48,740 nucleotides of DNA, from the IMG/VR virus record IMGVR_UViG_3300021960_000123, positions 1-48,740 of that record. One strand, 5' to 3'. The position numbers were made by a program, and so were the translations under genes. The notes under the pieces are model-generated. The model worked only from the letters and a program-made list of their open reading frames with translations, was not told the DNA's origin and did no database searches. Source of the stretch: a virus. Positions 4,349 through 46,366 of this stretch are shown here, one piece after another. Each line of letters starts with the position of its first letter. The first letter of the stretch is position 1.

Positions 4349-4741
4349 TTAGAAGGCAAAGGTAGCACCTACTTTAGTCGAAACATTATCAGATGCGTCG
4401 ACATCCCATGTTGTTTCACCAAACAACTCAACTCCACCAAATACTTCATATGTTGCACCAAGATTGATCTTTGGATCATCAAACGCATTGCTCAGTTGTA
4501 ATTCTTCGTTATTGTATACCGGAATGTCCATATCGGCTGTTAGACCAATACCGAACATTGAGTATCCGATTTCAGGAGTAATCTTAACTCCAAAATCATC
4601 TACCGCAGCGCCTGCTGCGTCATTGATCGTATATGCTGCTTCTGTTTCTACGCCCCAAGTAATACCGGTTGCTCCGATTTCATTGGCTGAGACTGATGTT
4701 GCCGTTACAAGAGCGGCTGCTGCGATTGCTGCAAATTTCAT
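4349..4741 (-). CDS. Small outer-membrane-type beta protein
   Basis: A 130-residue protein with a signal peptide (MKFAAIAAAALVTATSVSA, cleaved at about 19). The mature part alternates polar and hydrophobic residues in strands separated by Gly/Asp turns, and ends in ATFAF. A terminal aromatic Phe is the outer-membrane beta-barrel insertion signal. At about 110 mature residues it could form a small barrel or a multimer. It sits directly downstream of the tmRNA and ends at a terminator. Codon use is slightly more GC-rich than its neighbours, which could mean host origin. Confidence 0.85.
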   Translation of the reverse strand: MKFAAIAAAALVTATSVSANEIGATGITWGVETEAAYTINDAAGAAVDDFGVKITPEIGYSMFGIGLTADMDIPVYNNEELQLSNAFDDPKINLGATYEVFGGVELFGETTWDVDASDNVSTKVGATFAF

Positions 4742-4777
4742 TTCTTTAGTTCCCTTTTAAAATTATCATAATAAGAT

Positions 4778-4910
4778 GCCACTTTTCTGTTGCTAGGTAA
4801 GTGGCCAACCCCCTGTGATTATGCCGCTAGGGCAAATCCAGATGGTGCAAAATTATCGTTTGCATTTATGTTTTGTAAACTAGAATACATGTCGATCCTA
4901 TTTCAGCCCC
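4778..4910 (-). ncRNA. ssrA: tmRNA coding piece (5' domain, tag frame, 3' pseudoknot)
   Basis: Begins with GGGGCTGAAATAGGATCGAC at 4910. The tag frame follows at 4819-4863. After it a 7-bp stem (4799-4805 with 4778-4784) has a loop containing CAAC (4789-4792) that can pair with the GTTG just before the stem (4806-4809), giving a compact H-type pseudoknot. The 3' boundary is set at the stem end and is not certain. Confidence 0.8.
4819..4863 (-). other. tmRNA proteolysis-tag reading frame
   Basis: The resume codon is GCA at 4861-4863. The frame reads ANDNFAPSGFALAA and stops at TAA (4819-4821). The AND start and the ALAA end match ssrA tags, which mark stalled proteins for ClpXP-type proteases. 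ANDN-starting tags are typical of alphaproteobacteria. Confidence 0.9.
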
Positions 4911-5054
4911 ATCATAAGCACACTTGCGAAGTCTTTTATTATAACCGCGCTTAATCTTCTTACGTTCACCTGGTTTCCAATGATAGTATTTTTTAGATTT
5001 CTTGCTTAGAGCATCAAACTCATCGCCGCCTTTCATTTTAATACGTGTCGTCAT
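4866..5054 (-). CDS. Basic phage protein encoded inside the tmRNA intervening segment
   Basis: A 62-residue protein from the ATG at 5054 (GGAAAC upstream). The first 48 codons fill the tmRNA intervening segment (4911-5074) and the last 14 codons run into the tmRNA coding piece, stopping 3 bases before the resume codon. The N-terminal 44 residues (MTTRIKMKGGDEFDALSK... then a basic GYNKRLRK end) resemble a small family of basic proteins found in phages. The tail read from tmRNA sequence looks like an appended extension. If pre-tmRNA is processed, this message would be cut out, so expression must compete with tmRNA maturation. Function unknown. Confidence 0.65.
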   Translation of the reverse strand: MTTRIKMKGGDEFDALSKKSKKYYHWKPGERKKIKRGYNKRLRKCAYDGAEIGSTCILVYKT

Positions 5055-5074
5055 TATGTTTCCAAATGTGCTTG

Positions 5075-5141
5075 TGGTGGAGCTGCTCGGTACCGCCCCG
5101 AGGTCCATACATCCGTTATTAACGCCTACATTCTATGTATT
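5075..5141 (-). ncRNA. ssrA: tmRNA acceptor piece with encoded CCA
   Basis: The minus strand reads CTCGG-GGCGGTA-CCGAG (5-bp T stem with 7-nt loop, 5086-5102), then CAGCTCC and ACCA ending at 5075. This is the exact geometry of a tmRNA 3' end, and the CAGCTCCACCA end is the same as in E. coli tmRNA. The T loop lacks the usual TTC start, which is odd. The 5' limit of the piece is unclear; sequence to about 5141 can pair with the coding piece. Confidence 0.85.
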
Positions 5142-5234
5142 ACTTTATAGCCCTTACTTTGCACATAGCTTTCAACAATGTGCTTATCCTGTGATATAAT
5201 TATTACAGTTTTATTTTCGTCATAAGCATAATAC

Positions 5235-5540
5235 TTATGCTTCTTTTTCACTATCGTGGATGTAGAGTTGAATGAGGGCATAATGGAGAACTTTCATTAA
5301 ATCCTTACGGGCGTCATCTCGACTACCTTTTTTTCCATAACGATTTGAATACTTGTCAACGTTTCCCATACAGAAACCGGTGCCATGTCCACGTTCAATA
5401 ATTACTTCTGTTGATTGAAATTTATTTGTAGCATAATGCCCATCATACGTGGAATCAATATAAGCTTGGAATTCTTCAATCAAGGAGCCTTCATTAAATT
5501 TATAATCAATATTTACGTTTCCGATTTTTTCTTTTGCCAT
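5235..5540 (-). CDS. DUF3310-like phage protein
   Basis: 101 residues from the ATG at 5540, which has GAGGAG 8 nt upstream. The core GNVDKYSNRYGKKG...DDARKDLMKVLHYAL matches the pattern of DUF3310 (SaV) proteins: a Gly-Asn-x-x-Lys-Tyr helix and then a Lys-rich helix. These are common in phages and of unknown function, often near nucleotide metabolism genes. It overlaps the DUF1289 gene by 35 bases and is followed by the tmRNA. Confidence 0.75.
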   Translation of the reverse strand: MAKEKIGNVNIDYKFNEGSLIEEFQAYIDSTYDGHYATNKFQSTEVIIERGHGTGFCMGNVDKYSNRYGKKGSRDDARKDLMKVLHYALIQLYIHDSEKEA

Positions 5541-45578: not shown

Positions 45579-46366
45579 TAAGCACTATCACCATAATAAG
45601 TTATTGTTTCAGTAAATCCAAAGTCGCTATCTGCCAAACCAATCGTATCGATTGGATTTGGGGTAACAGATATTTTTTCTAAAGCAACATCTGAATCATT
45701 AAGCCCATTGTCAATTTGATAAAGATTAGTATCCGCTTGGCGAATAATAGTTTTAGAAGAAATAGGCCCATAAAAATTGACTTTCATATCAAAGTCTAAA
45801 GTATATATTATTGTGCGCCTTTGCTCTTGAGTTCCTTCATAATCATCAGTAAATGAAATCCCAGATAAAGAAATTGGAATATCTTCTTTTATATTTGAAT
45901 AATCATCAAATGGCTTAATCGTCAAAGTATATTGAGGCGTAAAATAAGGAAATATTTGTTCTACAATTTGTAAAGCATCATCTTGGTTTTTTGCATAAAC
46001 ACTTAATTGAAAGCTAATAATATATGGAACATAAGAGTTAAATTTATTTCTTTTATTAACATTTGACCCAGCTTGGGAAAAGGTGTTATTCTTTTGAAGT
46101 TGCCTTGTTAAATCATATGCAATAGCCGTGATTTCAAAAGACATTCTTGGTAGTTTAATTGATACTTTTGAGTCATCAACTAAATCTGGTTGCTGATTAA
46201 TTCTTTCGAGAAATTTTTGTTTTGGCCCATATGCTAATGGAACTTTCATTTGATTGATTACAGATCCCGAAGAATTTTTACGAATGACATAAAGATTATT
46301 AAATAGCGCGCCAAAAATAGCTACGCTTTTTCTAATTTTTTCGTGATAAAAGTGACCGCCGAACAT
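45578..46366 (-). CDS. 15: Tail sheath terminator gp15
   Basis: A 262-residue protein starting MFGGHFYHEKIRKSVAIFGALFNNLYVIRK, a typical gp15 opening. Mid-part PRMSFEITAIAYDLTRQLQKN and YTLDFDMKVNFYGPISSKTIIRQ are also characteristic. It caps the tail and joins it to the neck. T4 gp15 has 272 residues. One-base overlap with gene 16. Confidence 0.94.
   Translation of the reverse strand: MFGGHFYHEKIRKSVAIFGALFNNLYVIRKNSSGSVINQMKVPLAYGPKQKFLERINQQPDLVDDSKVSIKLPRMSFEITAIAYDLTRQLQKNNTFSQAGSNVNKRNKFNSYVPYIISFQLSVYAKNQDDALQIVEQIFPYFTPQYTLTIKPFDDYSNIKEDIPISLSGISFTDDYEGTQEQRRTIIYTLDFDMKVNFYGPISSKTIIRQADTNLYQIDNGLNDSDVALEKISVTPNPIDTIGLADSDFGFTETITYYGDSA

Follow-up and report, generated by a model that had tools for sequence, protein, structure and literature searches.

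The two-piece tmRNA genes of many marine phages carry, as far as their sequences indicate, a small protein gene in the spacer between the two RNA pieces, and this is a general feature with interchangeable cargo. We regard it as very probable that the intervening segment (IVS) of these genes serves as a cargo site in which small protein genes are lodged and transcribed together with the tmRNA. This reading is built on the ORFs and the selection acting on them, the stem that closes the IVS, the presence, absence and exchange of cargo between relatives, and the intactness of the tmRNAs, all of which can be read from the DNA.

The window and its tmRNA

The window, by which we mean the whole 48.7-kb virus record analyzed, contains T4-type replication and structural genes, judged by its large ORFs, and its minus strand holds an intact permuted (two-piece) alpha-type tmRNA. 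Two Rfam models matched it above their gathering cut-offs, RF04321 at 5126-4819 (-) with 78.9 bits (cut-off 47) and RF01849 at 5168-4775 (-) with 66.6 bits (cut-off 50); a run of ARAGORN on the window did not report a tmRNA. The acceptor stem forms 7 of 7 pairs and contains G3-U70, the T stem forms 5 of 5, and the CCA is encoded. The tag, ANDNFAPSGFALAA, is read from the resume codon GCA at 4863 to a stop that ends at 4819, and has a small hydrophobic C-terminal end. The features of the locus are as follows.

5126 to 5281, minus strand: small ORF of 51 aa that ends at the 5' side of the tmRNA, which comes next in the same direction (ORF list)
5075 to 5126, minus strand: tmRNA 3' piece, the first to be transcribed, with T arm, acceptor 3' strand CAGCTCC and ACCA (Rfam RF04321/RF01849; acceptor and T-stem pairing)
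4911 to 5074, minus strand: IVS, 164 nt, not part of the mature tmRNA (between CCA 5075 and GGGG 4910)
5065 to 5074, minus strand: 5' arm of the IVS terminal stem, CAAGCACATT, which stacks on the acceptor stem (pairs with 4924-4915; covariation; minimum-energy fold)
4866 to 5054, minus strand: nested ORF, 62 codons plus TAA at 4868-4866 (ATG 5054; protein family, alignment, dN/dS)
4915 to 4924, minus strand: 3' arm of the IVS terminal stem, AGTGTGCTTA, which doubles as codons of the nested ORF (covariation; minimum-energy fold)
4819 to 4910, minus strand: tmRNA 5' piece with acceptor GGGGCTG, D arm and tag frame 4863-4819 (ANDNFAPSGFALAA, TAA) (Rfam; tag read directly)
4775 to 4818, minus strand: region at the 3' end of the tmRNA 5' piece (4775 is the last position in the RF01849 alignment)
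4349 to 4741, minus strand: downstream ORF of 130 aa with a signal-peptide-like start, in the same direction as the tmRNA (ORF list)

The first-pass annotation of this DNA had placed an ORF in the IVS of a tmRNA, and both the Rfam matches and the reading of the frame bear out its coordinates (IVS 5074-4911, 164 nt). It had put the stop of that ORF 3 bases ahead of the tag resume codon, and here the distance has to be corrected to 2 bases. The nested ORF runs for 48 codons up to the final base of the IVS and then for 14 codons within the tmRNA 5' piece, where it stops 45 nt past the IVS end, so that the excised IVS RNA ends with the codon GAT, exactly on a codon boundary and with no stop. Its Shine-Dalgarno sequence is weak (TTTGGAAACATA-ATG). 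Directly upstream of the tmRNA the window has TATAAAGT where others have TATAAAT[AG], which is not a strong promoter; we assume that the tmRNA may be transcribed from an upstream promoter. When IVSs of the window's composition (locus L002, which has the same sequence) were dinucleotide-shuffled, an ORF filled them in about 4-5% of trials, so the window taken alone could be a chance case. Chance is excluded for the nested ORF by the homology of its protein and by the population-wide excess of filled IVSs, both described below.

The protein family of the nested ORF

Residues 1-48 of the nested ORF were said by the first-pass annotation to resemble a small basic phage protein family, which might be found elsewhere without a tmRNA. 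A scan of viral contigs with these residues as the query gave 86 relatives, 80 of which were kept, and the family is present at no fewer than 80 viral loci, the majority being stand-alone genes without a tmRNA. The ORF lies between CCA and GGGG in L001-L009, L029 and L030; the other relatives inspected are stand-alone, with no flanking tmRNA, and a check of family records for a permuted tmRNA found none in 20 of 26. Two loci (L015, L016) have a stand-alone homologue and a separate tmRNA, and the whole match span of the latter is just 169-174 nt, which leaves no room for cargo.

Residues 1-48 are basic and share the family motif KGGDEFDAL..KKIKRGYNKRxRK. Over 34 aligned sequences 11 residues are invariant (E12, D14, L16, K32, I34, K35, Y38, N39, K40, R41 and R43), and the window protein carries every one of them. 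The dN/dS of the nested frame, which had been proposed as a check, is about 0.10-0.35 among divergent nested members of the family; the closest pairs range from 0.13 to 2.45, with too few changes to be informative. Judged by these alignments, residues 1-48 constitute a genuine phage protein family under purifying selection.

Database comparisons of the window protein gave a possible match to the PHROG 16066 profile (E 7e-4, 20 bits, residues 10-46), while the Pfam candidates Tox-REase-9 and M_Eco57I_C were rejected with scores far under their cut-offs. Its AlphaFold model has two helices (pLDDT 85); no PDB relatives of the protein or the model were found, and the sole viral structural match of the model was a weak one to Mycobacterium phage Adawi T2A815 (E 0.32). 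A search of a phage collection gave no match either with the window region as DNA query or with the window protein by tblastn. A suspected homology between the upstream ORF of the window and the cargo of L390 was unsupported on comparison.

The tail read from tmRNA sequence

Residues 49-62 of the window ORF come from the tmRNA 5' piece, and the first-pass annotation had pointed to this use of the 5' domain as coding sequence. A conserved design is not supported by the relatives, in which both frame and stop vary. Measured from the end of the IVS, the stops fall at 13, 30, 33, 36, 45 or 108 nt, while L029 and L030 read the conserved GTGTGCTTATGATGGGG region in another frame that stops in the D arm. 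The TGTGCTTATGAT end of the IVS is thus conserved as RNA and not as protein, since it is read in two different frames across the window family. Compared with L001, the window has one acceptor pair in the reverse orientation, a compensatory change that leaves the nested protein sequence unaltered. On this comparison the 14-codon tail is incidental and not a conserved design; likewise, a stop just ahead of the resume codon was rejected as a design because the stops of the relatives differ, which makes it a coincidence of the window phage.

Filled IVSs in phages and bacteria

The phage sample rests on a single D-arm pattern, GGGGNNGAANTAGGATCGAC, and on metagenomic contigs. The pattern was found in at least 120 stretches of viral sequence, and 112 of those listed pass the acceptor and T-stem tests. 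The filling of each IVS by an ORF was compared with a null in which IVS interiors were dinucleotide-shuffled. Scan 1 made no selection on the IVS and, among the matches listed, about one in five phage tmRNAs had a filling ORF: at IVS lengths of 60-100 nt there was no excess (15 of 32 filled vs 15.2 expected), and at 135 nt or more a single ORF filled 17 of 20 vs 1.2 expected. Scan 2 required TTATGAT before GGGG and, again among the matches listed, found ORFs filling all 17 IVSs of 100-134 nt (2.2 expected) and 16 of 19 of those of 135 nt or more (0.3 expected). A few long phage IVSs, those of L126 (499 nt), L368 and L405 (194 nt) and L372 (199 nt), do not count as filled by one ORF when the rule is applied; the IVS of L126 opens with a 34-codon ORF bearing a KIPKYLSG motif.

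Applied to bacterial genomes, the same D-arm pattern led to 104 distinct IVSs, whose lengths have a median of 29 and a maximum of 71 nt. Ten further bacterial matches failed the CCA filter; eight of these are short too, one lies at a contig edge and one (L301) may not be a tmRNA. Among 105 alphaproteobacterial genomes with a tmRNA over the cut-off, inspection of the five longest-span matches found no long IVS filled by an ORF; among these are an IVS of 232 nt and another of roughly 113 nt, neither of them filled. The 232-nt IVS (L507, genome G101) contains two copies of a ~57-nt repeat and has no ORF. Long IVSs without a convincing ORF were also seen in Sinorhizobium phage Phosso (L503, 410 nt) and in Rhodobacter and Roseobacter-group phages (L500, L501, L504 and L505, about 98-111 nt), and these may hold structured RNA.

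Cargo families

The nested ORFs form about 32 clusters that are mutually unrelated, some of which are single loci with ORFs near 30 codons that could be due to chance. The cargo representatives scanned against PHROGs and Pfam gave no match, save one that resembles DUF2061 under its cut-off, and annotated relatives are lacking for most cargo proteins. A Shine-Dalgarno motif precedes 17 of the 32 cluster representatives vs 2.9 expected, and in about ten clusters this motif (AAGGA) lies within the terminal stem. Most informative cargo pairs have a dN/dS of about 0.05-0.4, with changes that favor third codon positions. The ORF stops inside the IVS in 18 clusters, often at the TGA of TTATGAT one base ahead of the cut; in nine it stops at the D-arm TAG, three overrun and two are mixed.

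A second cargo family (MEIIWHILLTVC.., MEIIWH) is nested in 22 of 52 inspected loci. Outside the IVS it follows tRNA genes or lies between them, or else borders a tmRNA on its upstream or downstream side (L427, L464, L487, L494, L439, L446, L454), which suggests that the IVS is one among several tRNA-neighborhood sites that this family uses.

Gain, loss and exchange of cargo

Locus L006 carries an ORF of the window family and L357 a plain 43-nt hairpin, and their flanks are identical over 70 nt upstream and 120 nt downstream of the IVS. Other pairs of filled and empty IVSs have closely similar flanks (L009 vs L159, L331 vs L400, L355 vs L379), and L155 and L341 hold different ORFs between flanks that are 97-98% identical. 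Window-family IVSs are 90-99% identical across phages whose other nearby sequence mostly fails to align, and alignments of these loci typically stop at the tRNA-like domain. From such pairs it appears that cargo is gained, lost and exchanged while the surrounding RNA stays intact. What is exchanged extends from one arm of the stem to the other, and this makes recombination within the conserved motifs CCACCATAA and TTATGATGGGG the probable route.

The RNA around the cargo

Across the clusters the first 10 nt of the IVS pair with a stretch that ends 4 nt before GGGG. The mean pairing of this terminal stem is 0.93 vs 0.71 when the 3' arms are swapped between families, none of 1000 swaps was as good, and several pair types occur at most positions. 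The minimum-energy fold of the window contains the stem, continuous with the acceptor. Because bacterial IVSs have a related stem, phages seem to have enlarged a pre-existing hairpin.

The cargo-bearing tmRNAs have G3-U70 in 63 of 63 cases and a full acceptor in 98%, although 6 of 7 acceptor pairs were a requirement for a locus to be found at all, and 98% of the tags found end in AA. Unusually long tags of 24-30 residues, e.g. ANANFKPEAFTSLDMSMDSELLAA, are predicted for L006, L142 and L359. A TATAAAT[AG] box is present upstream of 44 of 61 cargo-bearing tmRNAs vs 1.9 expected; viral tmRNAs that lack cargo have it in 65 of 121 cases and bacterial ones in 2 of 103. A promoter sequence with TTGACA-like and TATAAATA-like elements lies directly upstream of many phage tmRNAs (for example L003, L006 and L009) and is almost absent in bacteria.

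Proposed mechanism and alternative explanations

We propose that the precursor transcript would run from the 3' piece through the IVS to the 5' piece, and that its two IVS ends would form a 10-bp stem extending the acceptor stem. The protein gene would thereby sit in a hairpin loop, and the tRNA-like domain could fold and be cut. Permuted tmRNAs are matured by the usual tRNA enzymes, with RNase P acting at GGGG and 3' maturation at CCA. Translation of the ORF, which in many cases has a ribosome-binding site of its own just past the CCA, would take place on the precursor, and families with the stop inside the IVS could possibly be translated from the excised piece too. Cargo turnover would probably proceed through recombination in the conserved sequences flanking the IVS. 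Translation, the exchange route and the fate of the excised RNA are the steps that we infer.

With its stop 45 nt inside the 5' piece, the full-length 62-residue window protein could come only from the unprocessed precursor. The RNA left by excision would lack a stop and end on a codon boundary, a classical trans-translation substrate, and trans-translation would be expected to tag and clear its product. It is conceivable, if unlikely, that this forms a self-limiting circuit in which making the tmRNA frees a nonstop mini-message whose product the same tmRNA tags. The nested protein would then accumulate only while the precursor escapes processing or tmRNA/SmpB is saturated, and the nested gene would report and respond to the ribosome-rescue load during infection.

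The first-pass annotation had gone further and held RNA and protein to be mutually exclusive for each transcript. In such a switch the message would be lost on processing, and ribosomes passing through the acceptor strand would in turn keep the precursor from being processed; we see this as a possibility on the less probable side. In the window and in about a dozen other cargo families the frame extends beyond the RNase P site and enters the 5' piece, and where the Shine-Dalgarno sequence lies inside the terminal stem, as in about ten clusters, initiation and stem formation would compete. Excision does remove the window's stop; however, the start and 48 codons survive it, and 18 of 32 families keep the whole ORF and its stop inside the IVS, so that excision need not destroy the ORF and would leave a complete mini-message. 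A strict either/or is therefore not general. The frame and stop in the tmRNA part vary even within the window family, and this lack of conservation argues that the overrun is mostly accident rather than regulation.

If the IVS were merely tolerant of insertions, its ORFs would be recent, unexpressed passengers from neighboring tRNA and tmRNA regions. The frequent presence or absence of cargo between close relatives agrees with this, as does the cargo family found also between tRNA genes and beside tmRNAs, but we consider it quite improbable given the purifying selection in most multi-member clusters, the Shine-Dalgarno enrichment, ORF boundaries that fit the IVS and an intact stem with a coding 3' arm. 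That the nucleotides are kept for processing or structure, with the reading frame as a by-product, is already disfavored and extremely unlikely: the terminal stem and TTATGAT are indeed conserved as RNA, the 3' end of the window-family IVS is read in two frames and the predicted folds of cargo loops are somewhat more stable than those of other IVS loops, yet third codon positions take most of the changes, members of this protein family are encoded where there is no tmRNA, and the site is filled by around 30 sequences unrelated to one another. Near-identical IVSs in otherwise unrelated phages would also suit an IVS that is itself a mobile element of intron or homing type. This origin was rejected for the window ORF, with no group I or II intron among the Rfam hits of the window and no homing endonuclease domain in the window ORF or the cargo representatives in Pfam or PHROGs; the cargo families are mutually unrelated and share no mobility function, so we take it to be largely refuted and very unlikely.

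Relation to known systems

The arrangement occurs in a cultured phage. The Methylophilales phage Melnitz (MZ577097.1) has a nested IVS ORF at about 46077-46218 (L495 3286-3427), preceded by a Shine-Dalgarno sequence (TTGGAGAAGTAT-ATG), with 54 codons that read MFKWLSKTRLVVITRDYFRERNRKADAKIPKYLSGTRSVYD followed by 13 residues of overrun into the tmRNA 5' piece; the predicted protein includes the stretch MFKWLSKTRLVVITRDYF.., and a product read from the precursor would end in GGELGSTGRNRKV. Melnitz and the window thus share a two-piece tmRNA with an overrunning nested ORF, and differ in cargo family, that of Melnitz (..KADAKIPKYLSG..) resembling the cargo of L336 and L358. SsrA is the sole feature annotated at the nested ORF in the Melnitz record, and the available portions of the Melnitz paper describe the two-piece tmRNA with no mention of an IVS ORF (PMC9004378). 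A 2025 survey of 97,179 tmRNA sequences, in the portions available, likewise mentions no protein gene in any IVS, and reports as extras a tRNA-Ala gene in the IVS of one permuted tmRNA and a repeat in that of another (PMC11915505); these resemble the present loci in having additional IVS sequence, but they are single cases that do not code for protein. The first-pass annotation knew of no described case, and our search, confined to open-licence papers, also found none.

Permuted alpha-type tmRNAs (RF01849, RF04321) share with these loci the gene order, the G3-U70 acceptor, the T arm, the D arm, the tag frame and the stem-closed IVS. The bacterial ones have IVSs of at most 71 nt in the pattern sample and no protein gene, whereas the phage IVS here holds one. 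Among known arrangements, a tmRNA group I intron with a protein gene inside comes closest: the available portions of the survey describe tmRNA genes with such an intron bearing a homing endonuclease (PMC11915505). A protein gene likewise lies there in a segment removed from the tmRNA transcript, and the site, the removal mechanism and the cargo differ, since that intron sits in the T loop and carries an endonuclease, and the phage site is the IVS, with no self-splicing intron and with diverse small phage proteins. The parallel with an ArfA-type stop-less rescue factor would be a message lacking a stop that tmRNA may tag, but the nonstop RNA here would be a by-product of making the tmRNA, and no ArfA homology of the window protein was seen in Pfam or by PDB sequence match.

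Loci of this kind are easily missed, as ARAGORN was blind to the window tmRNA and the Melnitz record annotates just SsrA. They hide a set of predicted phage proteins at the IVS site, most of them unlike anything in PHROGs, and place a protein gene and a ribosome-rescue RNA on what is very probably one transcript, in whose stem the same nucleotides both code and form RNA structure. They would offer a natural system for asking whether precursor translation and processing compete, and the presence of the arrangement in a cultured phage makes it testable now.
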